Source: a virus
Virus record (IMG/VR): IMGVR_UViG_3300044655_000350
Span: 1 to 30,502 of that record
Reading direction: 5' to 3' (one strand)
Length of the DNA: 30,502 bases
The translations under genes and the position numbers were made by a program. Shown here one piece after another: positions 20,674 through 30,502 of the stretch. Position 1 is the stretch's first letter. The number at the start of each line of letters is the position of its first letter. The notes below the pieces were generated by a model. That model made no database searches. It was not told the origin of the DNA and worked only from the letters and a program-made list of their open reading frames with translations.

Positions 20674-20922
20674 TTATAGCGCATAATACTCTGTGTGTGG
20701 GGTAATAACTTCTTCAACATGTAACAACTCACCCGCCTCACATTTATGAACCATGTCCTGCTCCGCATCGAAATCATACATCGGTGATAAATACGTAGGA
20801 TTATCAAACGCCCTATACCACACTAAGTATTCCATGTATGCCTCTATACGATGAGGGGTTCTATAATGCTGATACTGTTTCACACTAACATTCTCCGTAA
20901 CTTTGTGCGTAGCTTGCTTCAC
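20674..20922 (-). CDS. Small hypothetical protein overlapping the polymerase 3' end
   Basis: The 82-residue frame opens with GTG at 20922, inside the last codons of the upstream polymerase gene (38-base overlap), and ends 31 bases before the Cas4-like gene. It is rich in Tyr, His and Glu (KQYQHYRTPHRIEAYMEYLVW). No family was recognised and no good Shine-Dalgarno is visible, so a downstream start is possible. Filling an otherwise empty slot in a tightly packed operon is the main support. Confidence 0.55.
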   Translation of the reverse strand: MKQATHKVTENVSVKQYQHYRTPHRIEAYMEYLVWYRAFDNPTYLSPMYDFDAEQDMVHKCEAGELLHVEEVITPHTEYYAL

Positions 20923-22783
20923 ATGATACAGGCAAACTTGCAGCCCAATCGGGTGGGGTGGACATGATGTCCATTATCCAAGCCTTCGCTTCTTCAGCCT
21001 CGTCCTCGGGTACTACGCAAACTGCCGCGTCATGTACTGTTAAGACTACTCTGTACTTCTCGTTTATCTTTATCATCTGCTGACCAACGATAATCCTAGC
21101 TAATGCTTGAACCACGTTCTCAACAAGTGTTCCTCCCCATATACTAACAGGACCTTTCCTAGATTGATAGACGTATCGGCTATTAGCTTCATCGGTGTTA
21201 TAAGAAAGTTTCGGGTATCTGATATACAAGCCGTTCGGTAGTCTTACTCCTTCTTTGGATATTAGTAGGCATTTGTGGTTACCGTAGTAGTACGGCTCAA
21301 CCTCGTAGTTCGCCCCTGTGTCAGCATCCTCGCGCATAAACCCGTTAGCTAAGTCTTGGATAACATCATCGCCTTCGCCCCATAAGCCTACAATCTTGTC
21401 ATTAGTGTCTCGGTATACCTTAACAATACGCTTGCACTCTTCCTCACTTAGTACAGCGCCAGGCGGTTGCGTCTTTAGAGTATGTTGTAGCTTAACTCCA
21501 CCTGTGCCAAAGCCTAGTCCTAACACGCATGTCTTGCCAACGAACCGCTCTACGGGGTTAGCTTTAGTGATAGTCTTCTCGTATATGGTCGATGCAAAGA
21601 TAGAGTAGACGTCCTTGTTGTCCCTAAAATGCTGAACCACGTCCTCCTGCCCTGCTAACCACGCAAGCACCCTAGCTTCAATTTGGCTTGAGTCACAGTT
21701 AATAACTACATAGCCCTCGGGCGCAATGACCGCGTTCTTAAGCGCTTTCTTTTTCTTATCTCGTGACGGTAAGTTTTGAAAGTTAACCTTGTCTGACCCA
21801 GCCCATCGTCCCGTATGCGCGCCGTAGTATTTAAGAGGGATAGGGAGACGCCCTTTGTTGCGAGCTCCAACTTGTATGAACCGTTCAATCCGAGACTCTT
21901 CAATAGTCGATTTAGTGCCAAGTCTAACTGAGCACAACTGCTGTATAAACGGGTCTTCGTTCTCTGAAAGTTCGATGAACCCGACGTCGTTTTTCGCAAG
22001 CGCATAGGTATCCTTTCCTGTGGTAGGGCTTTCTTTCATGGGTACTTTGACGCCAAGCTCAGCGAGTAGCTCAGCAAATTGTTTATTACTCGCTAACTTC
22101 TTACGGACTTCCTCTTCTGTGGCACAACCTAGTCTATCCATCAAGCCCTTTAGCATGTCAGACTTCTCTTTCTTAACATCTTCGAGTCGCTCAACTAATA
22201 ATGCGTCGTCTAAATGGAATATGGGGTTGATAAACATACGGAGCGTCATGTCGATTAACTTTAGTTCGTCTCCCGGGAATTCCTTAGAGAGTATCGTCCA
22301 TAGTTTATATGTTAGCTCAACGTCGTTCTTACAGTATTCACCGTAGCGTTCGAGGTCTCGTTCTAAGAAGTCAGTGCGTCGTTTGCCAAGTGCTTCCTCG
22401 ACTTCAGTGCCTTTAATACCAATGCCGTACTTGTCAGCTAGGATTGACAGAGACCCACCTGCATCTACTCCATGGACTGCGCGCGCTATGCATAGCGTAT
22501 CTAGATATATCTTAGGGACAATACCAAAATGCCAAGACAGAACAGCTCCGTCAAACATGGTGTTGTGGCATAGTAACGACGAGTTCTTCCAATCGTACTT
22601 CTTCAAATAGTTTCTCACCTCATCGTGAGTCCCTGTAAACCATTCCGCAGGTTCTTCGTTAACCTTGACACCTACCCCCACCACTTCAAAGCGAGGGTCT
22701 TTAACGTATTCTTCTGTAGTCTGAGTTCTGAAGCCAAGTCCTTTATCGTAGTATGTTTCAAAATCGACTGTAATTATGTTCAT
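20885..22783 (-). CDS. DNA polymerase A (copy 1), with 3'-5' exonuclease
   Basis: The 632-residue protein has a complete DnaQ-like proofreading domain: D7 and E9 (VDFET), D78 (HNTMFD), Y150 and D154 (YCKND). The family-A polymerase palm and fingers follow: motif A INCDSSQIEAR (D364), motif B R413...K417..., and motif C VLTVHDAAV (H584, D585). The O-helix reads RFVGKTCVLGLGFG. By register with Klenow, position 762 is Leu (L421) and 766 is Phe (F425). It lacks a 5'-3' exonuclease domain, as is usual in phages. The start overlaps the upstream gene as ATGA. A second, divergent polymerase of the same architecture lies about 4 kb to the right. Confidence 0.95.
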   Translation of the reverse strand: MNIITVDFETYYDKGLGFRTQTTEEYVKDPRFEVVGVGVKVNEEPAEWFTGTHDEVRNYLKKYDWKNSSLLCHNTMFDGAVLSWHFGIVPKIYLDTLCIARAVHGVDAGGSLSILADKYGIGIKGTEVEEALGKRRTDFLERDLERYGEYCKNDVELTYKLWTILSKEFPGDELKLIDMTLRMFINPIFHLDDALLVERLEDVKKEKSDMLKGLMDRLGCATEEEVRKKLASNKQFAELLAELGVKVPMKESPTTGKDTYALAKNDVGFIELSENEDPFIQQLCSVRLGTKSTIEESRIERFIQVGARNKGRLPIPLKYYGAHTGRWAGSDKVNFQNLPSRDKKKKALKNAVIAPEGYVVINCDSSQIEARVLAWLAGQEDVVQHFRDNKDVYSIFASTIYEKTITKANPVERFVGKTCVLGLGFGTGGVKLQHTLKTQPPGAVLSEEECKRIVKVYRDTNDKIVGLWGEGDDVIQDLANGFMREDADTGANYEVEPYYYGNHKCLLISKEGVRLPNGLYIRYPKLSYNTDEANSRYVYQSRKGPVSIWGGTLVENVVQALARIIVGQQMIKINEKYRVVLTVHDAAVCVVPEDEAEEAKAWIMDIMSTPPDWAASLPVSCEASYAQSYGEC

Positions 22784-26495: not shown

Positions 26496-26679
26496 TATCC
26501 CCTCCTACTATATCTATTAAAGTCAATGTACTTCCTTGGTCTATATTGCGTAAGCACTCTGCAAGTATCTGCTGTTGCTCTATCGTACTGGGCTCGGGCA
26601 TGCTATCCCCCTCGCTATACTCAATGAAAGCCTTTCTGTACCTAACAATCTCCGTATGTCTTGCCATATCCCGATTCAC
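26485..26679 (-). CDS. Small acidic protein overlapping polymerase copy 2
   Basis: The 64-residue frame opens with GTG at 26679 (or ATG at 26667) within the end of the polymerase gene and ends 11 bases into the next gene. Its C-terminus is helical and acidic (EQQQILAECLRNIDQG...). The overlap length matches that of the 82-aa gene after polymerase copy 1. No family was recognised. Confidence 0.55.
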   Translation of the reverse strand: MNRDMARHTEIVRYRKAFIEYSEGDSMPEPSTIEQQQILAECLRNIDQGSTLTLIDIVGGDNEN

Positions 26680-28465
26680 AATTTAATGGTAATTCTAATC
26701 CCCACTTGGGTCGCATCCTCATGCACATCTCAACATACTCAACTGCTGTTTCAACTTCTGCTTCGGGTACGATACATGCAATGGCATCGTGTACGGTCAT
26801 AACCACCTTATACTTCTTCGCCACCTGTAACATCTGTTCGCCGATAGCGATACGCGCGAGTGCTTGACATACATTCTCGACAACTTTCCCCCCATAAATT
26901 CTGTTTGGAATTGTAGCTTTACCTCTTTTTGTGTCATATACAAACTCCTCTTTGCCGTTCTCGTTAGTTTGCTTACGTAAGTTAGGATACTTAATATACA
27001 TGCCGTTTGGTAATTTAATGCCTTTCCTTCCTTCAACAACTAGCACACCCTTGCGCCCTAGGGGTGCTGTTTGGTCTGCCAGTATTGCCTCCAATGCCAC
27101 ACCCGCTTGTCGCCATAGTAGGGGTATCCACTCATAGGTGCTCCGGTACACGTCGATAATGCGTTTAGTTTCTTCTGCTGTTAGCACCACGTTATCTCGT
27201 AACAACTGCGCTTGGAACTTAACTGAACCCATCCCATACCCTGCACCGAGAATAGTAGTCTTGCCCATGAACCGTTCGGGTTTCGTAATCTCGTTTACTG
27301 GTTTGTTATAGATGCTACTTGCCATAATCTTGTAAACATCCTCACCCCTATCGAACGCATCAACAAGGTCATTCTGTTCTGCTAACCATGCTAGTGTCCT
27401 AGCCTCAATCTGTGAGCTATCGGCATCAACCATCAAATAGCCCTCAGGACCTAAAATTGCATGCTTTAGCACCGAGTTACGGGGTAGGTTTTGTAGGTTT
27501 ACTTTGTCATCTCCACCCCATCTGCCAGTATGTGCGGCATAATATCTTAGAGGGATAGGTAACTTGCCACGATTAGCAATTCCGATAAATCTTTCTGTCC
27601 GTGTTTCCTCTAACGTGGACTTACTACCTAGACGAGCCGCAACTAATGCTTGCACCGTAGGGTTAGGGTGCTCTCCCAATGCTTTGAACTCCTCATCGGT
27701 CTTAGCAAAAGCCCATGTTTCCTTACCTGTGGTTGGGCTAATCTTACGAGGGGGTACTACCCCATATGCTTTTAATACTTCAGCAAACTTATCGTTGCTC
27801 ATCAACTCCTCTTTAGCCATACCGATTGCTGAAAGCAAATCCTCTTTTGATTTCTTAATTTGTTCGAGGTGCACTAACAACACTCGTTTATCTAGCTCGA
27901 GGCTAGGCTCGGTAAACATACGGATGGTTAAGTCAATCAACTTATACTCCACCATCGGGAAGCCCACACTCATTTTCTTAAAAATATCATATGTAAGAGC
28001 CACATCATTAACACAATATTCACCATAACGAACGAGCTCTTCCGCATTAAAGTCTATCCTTCTTTTTCCAAGTGCATTGATTACCTCTGTGCCTTTTACT
28101 CCAGCACCGTAATGTTCTGCTAGTTTTGCTAGGCTACCGCCGACCTCTGTGCCATGAATAGCACGAGCCATAGATAGTGTGTCAATGATTGCTTTAGGGA
28201 AGATGCCAAAATGCCAACTCAATATAGCCAAGTCAAAAACCGCATTATGAGCAACAACCATATTAGCTTGTAAATCCAGTCCATCTAAAAATCCTTGTGT
28301 TTGTTCTTTTGTTCCACTAAACCATACGGGTGCGTTGTCATCTACGCTGACGGCTACACCTACTACTTCAAACTCCGGTGAGCGTATATACTCCTCCGTG
28401 GTCATCTTGCTTAACGAAAAGGTTTGGCTGTAATACGTTTCAAAGTCAATCGTTATTATTTTCAT
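26642..28465 (-). CDS. DNA polymerase A (copy 2), with 3'-5' exonuclease
   Basis: The 607-residue protein has the same architecture as copy 1: proofreading motifs D7 and E9 (IDFET), D78 (HNAVFD), Y150 and D154 (YCVND) at identical positions; polymerase motif A VDADSSQIEAR (D349), fingers R398...K402, motif C VMTVHDAIA (H559, D560). The O-helix reads RFMGKTTILGAGYG: L406 at the Klenow 762 position and Y410 at 766. The copies agree at 28 of the first 59 residues in an ungapped comparison by eye, so they are homologous but long diverged. The start overlaps the upstream gene as ATGA. Both copies look active. Confidence 0.95.
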   Translation of the reverse strand: MKIITIDFETYYSQTFSLSKMTTEEYIRSPEFEVVGVAVSVDDNAPVWFSGTKEQTQGFLDGLDLQANMVVAHNAVFDLAILSWHFGIFPKAIIDTLSMARAIHGTEVGGSLAKLAEHYGAGVKGTEVINALGKRRIDFNAEELVRYGEYCVNDVALTYDIFKKMSVGFPMVEYKLIDLTIRMFTEPSLELDKRVLLVHLEQIKKSKEDLLSAIGMAKEELMSNDKFAEVLKAYGVVPPRKISPTTGKETWAFAKTDEEFKALGEHPNPTVQALVAARLGSKSTLEETRTERFIGIANRGKLPIPLRYYAAHTGRWGGDDKVNLQNLPRNSVLKHAILGPEGYLMVDADSSQIEARTLAWLAEQNDLVDAFDRGEDVYKIMASSIYNKPVNEITKPERFMGKTTILGAGYGMGSVKFQAQLLRDNVVLTAEETKRIIDVYRSTYEWIPLLWRQAGVALEAILADQTAPLGRKGVLVVEGRKGIKLPNGMYIKYPNLRKQTNENGKEEFVYDTKRGKATIPNRIYGGKVVENVCQALARIAIGEQMLQVAKKYKVVMTVHDAIACIVPEAEVETAVEYVEMCMRMRPKWGLELPLNCESGYGKTYGDC

Positions 28466-28920
28466 TTGCCTTTTCCAAACGCACGTTTAGTTTGTTGCGA
28501 TACTACATTGTCAATTTCTGCTTGAGCTTCAGCCATTTGATGTTGGTGCATATACTCGGCTTGTTTTTGCGAGGCTAATTGTTGGTTGGGTTTGAGCCCA
28601 TCGCTTTGGGTTTGCGCAGAAGTATGATAGTTCCCGTCATCAGCACCCGCCAATAGTCTGCCCATAACATCCTTGGTGAACTCCTCGGCACGTAAGGCTT
28701 TTAGCTTATTGTGTAACGTGGCGATTTCTTCATCCTCTAGGAAGTCTAGCTGATACGCATAATGGCGGGGGATATCGGGAGTGCCGATAATAGCTTGATA
28801 GCGTTGTTCTATCTGTTCCATGATATCCCGCCACTTACGAGCAAACAATGGGGCATTATACCCAAACTCCTCGGGGGTGCTATCTATCCGTTCTAGTAGT
28901 ATCTCTACACCTTTGTTCAT
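28462..28920 (-). CDS. Hypothetical protein preceding polymerase copy 2
   Basis: The 152-residue protein is helical: an N-terminal Leu/Glu/Arg-rich part, then DFLEDEEIATLHNKLKALRA, a Gln/Ser/Thr linker and a Gln/Ala-rich C-terminus ending RAFGKGK. The stop overlaps the polymerase start as ATGA, as in copy 1. I saw no clear sequence similarity to the 148-aa gene before copy 1, although both are about 150 residues, helical, and coupled to a polymerase. An accessory role is only inferred. Confidence 0.7.
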   Translation of the reverse strand: MNKGVEILLERIDSTPEEFGYNAPLFARKWRDIMEQIEQRYQAIIGTPDIPRHYAYQLDFLEDEEIATLHNKLKALRAEEFTKDVMGRLLAGADDGNYHTSAQTQSDGLKPNQQLASQKQAEYMHQHQMAEAQAEIDNVVSQQTKRAFGKGK

Positions 28921-29200
28921 TTAGTATCTCCTCTAACAATGTTAGGTTTGTTTCGTTAATCACGATAGCTCTACCGCCCGCATCTCGGATGCTTTGCATC
29001 TCTTTCTCTTGTAGTGCGGTTGGTTTGTTTGTTCCCGCTTTGCACTCTACCCCTAGGAATTGCCCATTGATACAGCAGATAATATCGGGTATGCCACTAC
29101 GACCAAAGCCGTGAGTAGCGGGGAAAAAGTAATATACGCCCTGAGCCTTAAGTAGCTTAACAGCGCGGTCTTTAACTTTCTTTTCAGGGGTTAATGCCAT
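28880..29200 (-). CDS. VRR-NUC domain nuclease
   Basis: The 106-residue protein carries the VRR-NUC active site: GIPDI (G36-P38-D39), then GVECKAG (E52, K54) and Q64, with the GFGRSG loop before it. Free-standing VRR-NUC proteins of this size are common in phages and cut branched DNA or Holliday-type junctions. Its ATG lies where transcription from the promoter just upstream should begin, so its mRNA would be leaderless. It overlaps the next gene by 41 bases and carries one of the CTAACAATGTTAG sites near its 3' end. Confidence 0.92.
   Translation of the reverse strand: MALTPEKKVKDRAVKLLKAQGVYYFFPATHGFGRSGIPDIICCINGQFLGVECKAGTNKPTALQEKEMQSIRDAGGRAIVINETNLTLLEEILNEQRCRDTTRTDR
28933..28947. 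repeat. CTAACAATGTTAGG dyad, copy 1
   Basis: CTAACA and TGTTAG flank a single A, a perfect 13-bp dyad with GT after it. It lies in the coding sequence near the 3' end of the VRR-NUC gene. Two more copies lie at 29674 and 30217. Confidence 0.7.
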
Positions 29201-29206
29201 GCCCCC

Positions 29207-29234
29207 ATGATAACATAGGGTTAGACTTTGTCAA
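29207..29234 (-). promoter_or_regulatory. Strong sigma-70 promoter for the VRR-NUC / polymerase operon
   Basis: On the minus strand, TTGACA (29234-29229) is a perfect -35 box. After a 16-base spacer comes TATCAT (29212-29207), with TG one base before it as an extended -10. Six bases (GGGGGC) separate the -10 from the ATG of the nuclease gene. This is the best promoter I found in the window and it would serve the whole block to the left, using host RNA polymerase. Confidence 0.8.
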
Positions 29235-29284
29235 GGGGTGTGGGGTTTATTTTGTGAGAGGTTAGGTAGAGGGGGGTGGTGGGG
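29235..29284 (+). other. G-tract cluster beside the promoter
   Basis: The plus strand has four G runs of four or more (29235-29238, 29242-29245, 29271-29276, 29281-29284) in 50 bases, starting next to the -35 box. The set could form a G-quadruplex, though one loop is long (25 bases). No gene is in this interval. Confidence 0.5.
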
Positions 29285-29321
29285 TATGTAGATTACTTGC
29301 CCACCTCAAGTTACGAAAGGT

Positions 29322-29357
29322 TTAGCTAACCTAAATTTTTTTGGGGTAGTTAGCTAA
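29322..29357. repeat. Inverted repeat TTAGCTAAC / GTTAGCTAA
   Basis: Nine-base perfect arms (29322-29330 and 29349-29357) enclose 18 bases that include a run of seven T. The left arm region on the plus strand (AGGTT, TAGCT, AACCT, then AAA and Ts) could also act as a weak terminator. It is one of two adjacent inverted repeats in the 223-base gap 29201-29423. Confidence 0.6.
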
Positions 29358-29358
29358 G

Positions 29359-29400
29359 ACCGAATTGCATTTGCATCTACAAGGCTACTAGCAATTCGGT
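29359..29400. repeat. Inverted repeat ACCGAATTGC / GCAATTCGGT
   Basis: Ten-base perfect arms (29359-29368 and 29391-29400) enclose 22 bases. It begins one base after the previous inverted repeat ends. There is no T run on the minus side, so it is not a simple terminator. It may be a binding site or part of an origin. Confidence 0.6.
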
Positions 29401-29423
29401 TGTATCAATAACCCCTACCGATA

Positions 29424-29864
29424 TTATGGGTTGGTAGCCAGTAACTCATTCTTTAAATACCATATTGCGGCTTTGATATTCTCACGCTTGTTCTCGCTAT
29501 TGGAATTAAGAGCATGGGCTACTGCGCTACCTAGATTGTAGTTTAGCTTATACTCGTTAATTAAATCAACCACCTTTACAAACTTTTCCGAGTATTTAAT
29601 TTCGGTATCGGTATTGACTTGCGCCTCAACTTCTGCCTTGGTTTTATATATAGGTTGAACGGTGTTCTCTTGGCTAACAATGTTAGGTAGTTTAGCACCC
29701 ATACTAGCTTTCCTACGCAACTGCGCTTTAACTTCATATACTAACCTTACATCGGCACGGGCTTTCTTAGCGATTTTTTTAGGTATCGCATTAGGGGTTA
29801 CTGCTAGAATAGCTCTAATCCTAGCGGATTGGCTTAATGGTTTATTTGCTGTTTGTGTTGTCAT
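29424..29864 (-). CDS. HTH-like plus DUF3310-like protein
   Basis: The start ATG at 29864 has GGAG 6 bases upstream and is preferred to 29876. The 146-residue product has an N-terminal part (QSARIRAILAVTP, IPKKIAKKARADVRLVYEVK) that looks like a helix-turn-helix. Its C-terminus, YNLGSAVAHAL then KRENIKAAIWYLKNEL, follows the DUF3310 helical pattern ('lGnavkY.lR....eDlkKAiwYL'). A Thr/Val/Glu linker joins the two. A second CTAACAATGTTAG site lies within it. It may be an early regulator; both domain calls are by eye. Confidence 0.6.
   Translation of the reverse strand: MTTQTANKPLSQSARIRAILAVTPNAIPKKIAKKARADVRLVYEVKAQLRRKASMGAKLPNIVSQENTVQPIYKTKAEVEAQVNTDTEIKYSEKFVKVVDLINEYKLNYNLGSAVAHALNSNSENKRENIKAAIWYLKNELLATNP
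29674..29688. repeat. CTAACAATGTTAGG dyad, copy 2
   Basis: This copy is identical over 15 bases (through the final T) to copy 1 at 28933. It lies inside the HTH/DUF3310-like gene, so it is not explained by gene boundaries. Confidence 0.7.
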
Positions 29865-30021
29865 TTCGTTCTCCATTTGAATTTACAAAATCTCGTAATA
29901 CAGCTCTAATTGTGGCTTGAATTTTACTTGGGTAATTCTTAGCAATGTAGTCATATACATCTAAATCAAGCCTTATGCTTAATTGCTTTAGTGCTATGTG
30001 GTTTGGTTTTTTGCCTCTCAT
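29842..30021 (-). CDS. Ribbon-helix-helix protein resembling BrnA antitoxins
   Basis: I read this 59-residue gene directly. Its core, [20 protein letters not shown] then [14 protein letters not shown], matches the 'isIRLDpDVl.......tRInavLRay' ribbon-helix-helix pattern of BrnA-type antitoxins and related repressors. Two purine-rich Shine-Dalgarno sites precede the ATG, and the start overlaps the upstream stop as ATGA. No BrnT toxin is next to it, so it is more likely a stand-alone phage transcription repressor. The Asn-rich tail overlaps the next gene. Confidence 0.75.
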
Positions 30022-30200
30022 TCTCCTTTCTCCTTGTTAAATAAATAGTCTTTCCTATATTCAGACGGCGGTTGCCACCCTTGCTTGCGCCACGTTACCA
30101 TTACATCGGTATCATCGGCTCTCACATACTTAAAGTTTGGGTCTAGTATTGATATTGCTTTGGGGATACTCATTGTTTTTTCTTTTTTAACTAACTGCAT
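30018..30200 (-). CDS. Small conserved phage protein ([11 protein letters not shown] type)
   Basis: The conserved part, [19 protein letters not shown] then [19 protein letters not shown], is a small phage protein of unknown role that I recognise from other podoviruses. The start is ambiguous. ATG 30173 begins the conserved part but lacks a good RBS. ATG 30200 has AGGAG 9 bases upstream and is used here. ATG 30209 abuts the AGGAG. It overlaps the upstream gene. Confidence 0.7.
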
Positions 30201-30492
30201 TAGGTTCATCTCCTAGCCTAACATTGTTAGGCATATTGATTAAATATACTTCCTCATCGCACTTCACACCTACATCGGGTATCTCCCCCAAAACTGGCAC
30301 AAGTTTAAGCATACCCACTCGGGTTCTAACTTCGGGTGGCAATACATCCCTTGCAAACGTAATGGGTTCTTTATCAACAAACGTGAAGTGAAAGGTATCG
30401 CCCGTAATAGCTACATAACACGCACTACCCGCCTCGTAATTATCTGAAAATTGTTTTGATGTGCGCCTAGCATCTATTAAGCCCTCTAGCAT
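30187..30492 (-). CDS. Hypothetical early protein, possibly 5'-truncated
   Basis: The 101-residue protein ([20 protein letters not shown], then a beta-rich middle and an acidic C-terminus) ends with a segment containing the third CTAACAATGTTAG palindrome. The frame has no stop between the ATG at 30492 and the window edge and no RBS is visible, so the true start may be beyond it. No family was recognised. Confidence 0.6.
30216..30232. repeat. GCCTAACATTGTTAGGC dyad, copy 3
   Basis: This is the most symmetrical copy: 8-base arms GCCTAACA and TGTTAGGC around one T. On the opposite strand the core reads CCTAACAATGTTAGG like the other two. It lies just upstream of the AGGAG of the next gene. Confidence 0.7.
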
Positions 30493-30502
30493 ATTAAGGT
30501 TT

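Follow-up and report, generated by a model that had tools for sequence, protein, structure and literature searches.

The window analysed here is an entire virus record of 30,502 nts, and its right end falls just inside the early operon, where the genes described below lie on the minus strand. The end of the record cuts a gene (30187–30501) of which the C-terminal 104 residues are present; it belongs to a fast-evolving family, termed f285, whose full members have about 285 amino acids. Beyond it are genes for a 63-amino-acid protein kept in several relatives (30018–30209), a 59-amino-acid ribbon-helix-helix (RHH)-like protein (29842–30021), an HTH domain joined to a DUF3310-like domain (29424–29876), a VRR-NUC or Holliday-junction-resolvase-like nuclease (28880–29200), a 152-amino-acid protein (28462–28920) and a family-A DNA polymerase, PolA (26642–28465). 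In relatives the DUF3310 domain is matched with an E value of about 1e-20; the window's own HTH/DUF3310-like protein has no Pfam match. The AlphaFold2 model of the RHH-like protein has an extended strand and then helices at residues 20–29 and 34–48. Foldseek with this 59-residue monomer model gave nothing useful, and no RHH relative emerged when PDB sequences were searched with a profile; the basis of the RHH label is therefore the sequence pattern together with the two predicted helices. No IMG/VR relatives of the window RHH were found by direct patterns. The window phage has two related family-A DNA polymerase genes, the other being at 20885–22783. Between the HTH and VRR-NUC genes there is a near-consensus sigma-70-like promoter sequence (TTGACA-16-TATCAT, 29207–29234, minus strand, with TG before the second hexamer), promoter-like by its consensus match of 11/12.

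Within this gene run a palindrome recurs. The sequence CTAACAWTGTTAG has three copies, at 28933, 29674 and 30218, and none elsewhere in the window, which bears out the initial annotation in its report of three copies sharing a 14-mer and of no other full copy. Exact matches to CTAACAATGTTAG are at 28933–28945 (plus strand), 29674–29686 (plus) and 30218–30230 (minus), with no fourth place at up to one mismatch across the window. A palindrome present three times exceeds chance. With up to two mismatches the 14-mer has 6 matches in the window; in 100 shuffles the matches averaged 0.33 and reached 3 at most. The only 13-mers with three window copies are that of the site and its one-base shift (20 Markov-3 resamplings yielded none), and three-copy palindrome families arose in 0 of 150 Markov-2 and 1 of 150 Markov-5 resamplings of the window.

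The first site lies towards the 3′ end of the VRR-NUC frame and also in the leader of the gene for the 152-amino-acid protein, 12 nts upstream of its ATG at 28920. The second is in the interdomain linker of the HTH/DUF3310-like gene. The third, with its core at the 3′ end of the f285-like gene, is extended to a 17-bp dyad on the minus strand (GCCTAACAATGTTAGGC, also written GCCTAACATTGTTAGGC; 30216–30232), an extension that had been noticed earlier, and it adjoins an AGGAG ahead of an ATG at 30209 or 30200. A site in the same f285-like gene end, in the codons for PNNVS, is found in 28 relatives with this 13-bp form (termed N1). Though it was correct to describe all three copies as lying in coding frames, copies 1 and 3 are also directly upstream of ribosome-binding sites, and site 2 alone is truly gene-internal.

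Arrays in related phages

Scanning IMG/VR for the 15-mer CCTAACAATGTTAGG gave at least 120 stretches, in many of which the 13-mer occurs 3–22 times within about 10 kb. Full records of relatives have up to 21–22 copies, and the reversed-pattern control was 0 in 28 of 28. The gene run common to the window and its relatives is f285, RHH, HTH/DUF3310, VRR-NUC and PolA; relatives with the RHH–HTH/DUF3310–VRR-NUC–PolA genes typically carry about 10–22 copies, with almost none outside the early operon. When the motif was counted in whole relatives of 62–67 kb, as the initial annotation had proposed, it proved not to be genome-wide but restricted to one stretch of 10–15 kb that encodes f312, MoxR, VWA, DUF3150-like, f285, RHH and HTH genes. 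The DUF3150-like, VWA/metallopeptidase, MoxR and f312 genes lie beyond f285 in these relatives and are the part absent from the window; judged by synteny, the window phage would have further sites past 30502. In bacterial and archaeal genomes there were only single copies per stretch among the matches listed, which is the chance level. On that ground a host highly iterated palindrome (HIP1-like) or an uptake sequence is rejected.

Samples blind to the sites were obtained by fetching loci by protein (RHH, and PolA with the 26642–28465 product as query) and not by palindrome. About 27 of the 80 RHH-sampled loci have the 13-bp site; the other 50 lack it and instead have an iterated 14-bp sequence, CTAACA-NN-TGTTAG. 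Of the 26 PolA-sampled loci whose early-region genes were covered, 23 have two or more sites of a single prevailing design. (One PolA relative, L436, has the DUF3150-like, VWA and DUF3310 genes and is missing the sites, RHH and f285 alike.) Of 33 records with sites, 31 have RHH; L388 has RHH and f285 and no sites. A PF00589 integrase was detected in 0 of 24 records, the positive controls being matched in 14 of 14.

Five designs are now distinguished: CTAACA-N1-TGTTAG (that of the window), CTAACA-N2-TGTTAG, CTAACA-N3-TGTTAG, ATAACA-N2-TGTTAT and CTGACA-N2-TGTCAG, the last three having been added by the RHH and PolA samples. Most genomes keep to one design, and 13- and 14-bp sites occur together in 0 of the 123 RHH-bearing loci of the first samples. 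The few genomes that mix designs (L012 and L055 clearly; L335, L395, L400, L405, L410 and L401 to a lesser degree) suggest that whatever reads the sites tolerates more than one spacing. The tree of the DUF3150-like gene requires at least 10 design changes, and with N1 or N2 taken alone its well-supported branches force at least five. Between L401 and L407 the intergenic sites went from 14 to 15 bp while the genic sites remained 14 bp, since a one-base insertion in the latter would shift the reading frame. Dispersed palindrome arrays were already known. As far as our searches show, concerted design change within one phage group is apparently new, no description of such switching having been found in the literature searched.

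The sites give a symmetric logo (A C/Y CTAACA W TGTTAG G/R T), in which the base preceding the core tends not to be A and the base following it tends not to be T. Of the N1 variants with a single mismatch, 157 of 170 have the outermost base altered; as mismatches are nearly all outermost, the core is TAACA-W-TGTTA. The central base of N1 in the sense strand is A in 243 and T in 197 cases (start-codon sites excluded), and the sense-strand centre of N2 is biased towards AA, 102:47. There is no directional conserved flank or promoter around the sites in the logo, and an N4-type hairpin promoter was set aside on account of flanks without directional conservation. Leaders and start codons hold 33% of N1 and 58% of N2 sites, against a background of 9–10%, an enrichment of 3–9 times that is accompanied by depletion within genes and is stronger for the 14-bp form. 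Nevertheless, 45% of N1 sites are mid-gene. Spacing is more even than random (mean CV 0.65 versus 0.90), although the significance combined over genomes counts relatives as if they were independent. Often, in relatives, a site is immediately ahead of the terminator after the HTH gene.

Codon choice at genic sites indicates that the palindromes are under selection as DNA, beyond the protein sequence. The control was relatives of another design that carry the same peptide. The MoxR peptide SNIVR is encoded by TCTAACATTGTTAGG in 62 of 63 N1 phages (a count inflated, like those that follow, by relatedness), whereas only a small number of the 21 N2 phages that share this peptide retain these codons and the rest vary. 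Similarly, LTMLG of the DUF3150-like protein is encoded by CTAACAATGTTAGGN in 104 of 104 N1 phages, only the third base of the Gly codon, which is just outside the site, being variable; in N2 phages it has many different codons. Because this adjacent base varies freely in the same sequences, shared recent descent alone is not the cause of the codon identity. Synonymous positions, to which the initial annotation had pointed, show no drift in N1 phages and drift in phages of other designs.

Candidate readers

The sites are very probably read by a phage-encoded protein. L401 and L407 are near-identical, with most genes 95–100% identical, and yet differ in design (N3 versus ATAACA-N2), which argues that the reader is encoded by the phage if, as is likely, the two share a host. 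Identity between them, for genes inside the fetched loci, is 100% for RHH and the DUF3150-like protein, 98.8% for VWA and 99.3% for PolA, with the HTH domain differing by one residue; the divergent genes are f285 (70%) and a few small genes (51–66%). In a second pair, L080 (N1) and L403 (N2), the four differences in RHH all lie away from the strand that faces the DNA, and the HTH domains are almost the same. Conversely, the residues of the RHH strand are diverse (YFP, CTS, HVN, NVS, QLS) although the half-site is constant, and the same is true of the HTH recognition helices. Four phages with sites (L052, L035, L048 and L112) have a DUF3310 protein without a fused HTH domain.

The initial annotation had put forward the products of the RHH gene (29842–30021) and the HTH gene (29424–29876) as binders. 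The two pairs share these proteins while differing in design, and the suggestion does not hold up well. The HTH/DUF3310 protein was set aside as reader on account of near-identical HTH domains that accompany different designs. The RHH protein was likewise rejected, identical versions being found with different designs and different versions with the same design, though mixed genomes show a tolerance of spacing that leaves RHH as reader unlikely and no worse. That the palindromes are operators of either neighbour has, overall, little probability. RHH and HTH proteins often bind dyads of this kind, the occurrence of RHH in 31 of the 33 site-bearing records fits, and RHH and sites are missing together in L436; these points have to be set against the RHH that is identical in L401 and L407 and near-identical in L080 and L403, the variation of RHH strands and HTH helices under a constant half-site, and the phages whose DUF3310 protein has no HTH. 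The broader part of the earlier claim, a set of sequence-specific sites at the early end, is upheld by DNA-level selection and by confinement of the sites in relatives.

Among the universal early proteins f285 is the best candidate reader, though it is a weak lead. No other of them has as many columns that separate the designs (22 of 277), and the 70% identity of f285 between L401 and L407 is flanked by neighbours at 98–100%. However, it is the fastest-evolving family and pairs of the same design diverge too. The AlphaFold2 model of f285 has a pLDDT of 91. With the whole chain, Foldseek against the PDB was uninformative and a second look gave a best Z of 6.7 (Nqo15); in BFVD there were only unnamed phage proteins, and no relatives were found in cultured phages. 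The model thus resembles no DNA-binding fold so far recognised, and the presence of f285 in L388, which has no sites, also counts against it. A MazE-like reader was ruled out, there being no MazE-family gene in 18 site-bearing records.

Comparison with described systems

The closest described case is the dyad array of Cluster O mycobacteriophages, in which a 17-bp dyad, TGTTCGG-N3-CCGAACA, has more than 30 invariant copies per genome (34 in Corndog), both intergenic and genic and mostly away from promoters, with a dimeric binder predicted and function unknown (PMC4351075). The phages described here are similar in having, in relatives, at least 10 near-invariant dyads per genome (the window shows 3) at genic and intergenic positions, in the absence of orientation to transcription (clear for N1; N2 leans to AA), and in having no integrase (PF00589, 0 of 24 records). 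Different are the half-sites, CTAACA/TGTTAG and variants, and the hosts. Moreover, the Cluster O dyads are genome-wide and of one fixed design, whereas those here are confined to the early operon and have undergone repeated concerted switching of spacing and half-site.

Cluster A stoperators, bound by L5 gp71, are 13-bp sequences (GGTGG[c/a]TGTCAAG) of which about two dozen are dispersed in the genome, with a consensus that differs by subgroup (PMC5712189). Binding to them lowers downstream expression; they lack symmetry, run in the direction of transcription and are read by a prophage repressor (PMC5712189). Site number and dispersal are similar here, but the sites are perfect dyads, the N1 centre is unbiased and there is no PF00589 integrase. 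The Start-Associated Sequences of Cluster K (GGGATAGGAGCCC) are non-palindromic, 3–7 bp before starts, and have ribosome-binding potential (PMC3203893). They too are short repeats that recur at numerous non-structural genes with a preference for translation starts, though the palindromes are at leaders or starts in only 33% (N1) or 58% (N2) of cases and nearly half of those of N1 are mid-gene. MtvA, a MazE-like antitoxin of plasmid pPAD8, binds TAACATTGTTA (PMC11826091), which is the 11-bp core of the N1 site; MtvA has a single promoter target, and the match is probably a coincidence. Neither CTAACAATGTTAG nor CTAACATTGTTAG was found printed in the open-access literature searched.

Two cultured phages have the same phenomenon with unrelated half-sites, and MoxR and VWA genes in common. 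Planktothrix phage Pag-Yong1 (OL906435.1; L497) has 21 copies of GGTTCA-N3-TGAACC, compared to at most 4 in resampled sequence, and also 20 copies of GTTCAG-N-CTGAAC; no description of its array was found in the literature searched. Rhizobium phage RHph_TM3_14A (MN988472.1; L244) has 12 copies of GTTACC-N6-GGTAAC, distributed over early genes and replication genes (resampled sequence gives 2 at most), and searches in it for the families f285 and RHH found neither. MoxR and VWA genes as a general partner of arrays are rejected, as SBP1 has both and no array.

What the palindromes may do

Given an N1 centre without clear strand preference and flanks without a promoter, the best reading of the sites is that they are bound by a two-fold-symmetric phage DNA-binding protein. 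The proposal preferred here, held tentatively at close to but short of an even chance, is that the palindromes are double-stranded DNA sites of one dimeric phage protein, which most likely lowers early transcription by roadblocks. A single phage-encoded dimer would bind all of the palindromes, ten to twenty of which tile the early operon every ~0.5–1 kb, both at the starts of genes and in intergenic stretches as well as within long genes. As the protein accumulates, each bound dimer would partly block RNA polymerase, and early transcription would fall or stop, in the manner of stoperators. Roadblock silencing is the least secure step; it is suggested by the stoperator analogy, the even spacing, the filled long genes and the lack of promoter association, but genic sites and start enrichment would also fit other roles. 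Against an array with a dedicated reader is L388, which has no sites despite having RHH and f285.

It is somewhat unlikely that the palindromes instead act in RNA, as operators in early mRNA in which a hairpin with a stem of 5–7 bp and a loop of 3, 4 or 5 nts near ribosome-binding sites would serve a phage protein or an RNase as its recognition element in controlling translation or decay. The enrichment at leaders and starts and the lean of N2 centres to AA in the sense strand are what this would lead one to expect, the longer forms fold at −6 to −8 kcal/mol, and a reader of one loop size would explain a single design per genome. But the N1 centre is nearly strand-neutral, 45% of N1 sites are mid-gene, the 13-bp core alone yields only −1.1 kcal/mol, single mismatches in N1 break the outermost pair in 168 of 170 and no match was found in Rfam. 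A phage DNA-organising or partition-like protein, whose dimers would bridge or compact the early region without direct effect on transcription (compare MatP and ParB), is unlikely. The 13-bp odd dyads are similar in layout to matS, though matS, GTGACRNYGTCAC, differs in sequence. Regular spacing, filled long genes and the lack of a promoter link would all suit such a protein; restriction of the sites to the early operon rather than the whole genome, and their concentration at gene starts, would not, and the 24 records without a PF00589 integrase suggest no obvious need for partition. The replication-type role that had also been raised fits poorly with 10–22 copies and with replication genes that lack sites. 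For a host transcription or nucleoid factor exploited by the phages there is precedent in the use of CtrA by pilitropic alphaproteobacterial phages (PMC9437464). However, no bacterial or archaeal stretch among the matches listed has more than one copy, phages that are nearly identical can have different designs and a given design holds throughout the operon, all of which makes a host factor distinctly improbable.

A wider proposal is possible but on balance doubtful: that a large, uncultured and probably lytic phage group controls or organises its early operon via palindromes whose reader, perhaps f285, is a DNA-binding protein of a type not yet recognised, and that this reader has repeatedly switched spacing and half-site, each switch being carried through the entire array. 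Since Corndog, lytic phages have been known to carry dispersed palindrome arrays to which neither a function nor a reader was assigned. This uncultured group offers hundreds of genomes, several independent design changes and, at the level of codons, a natural experiment on DNA selection, while L401 and L407 are sister phages that differ in little beyond design and a few genes. With such material the reader should be findable by comparison and the function testable, and Pag-Yong1 and RHph_TM3_14A, with arrays of their own, may serve as bench models.
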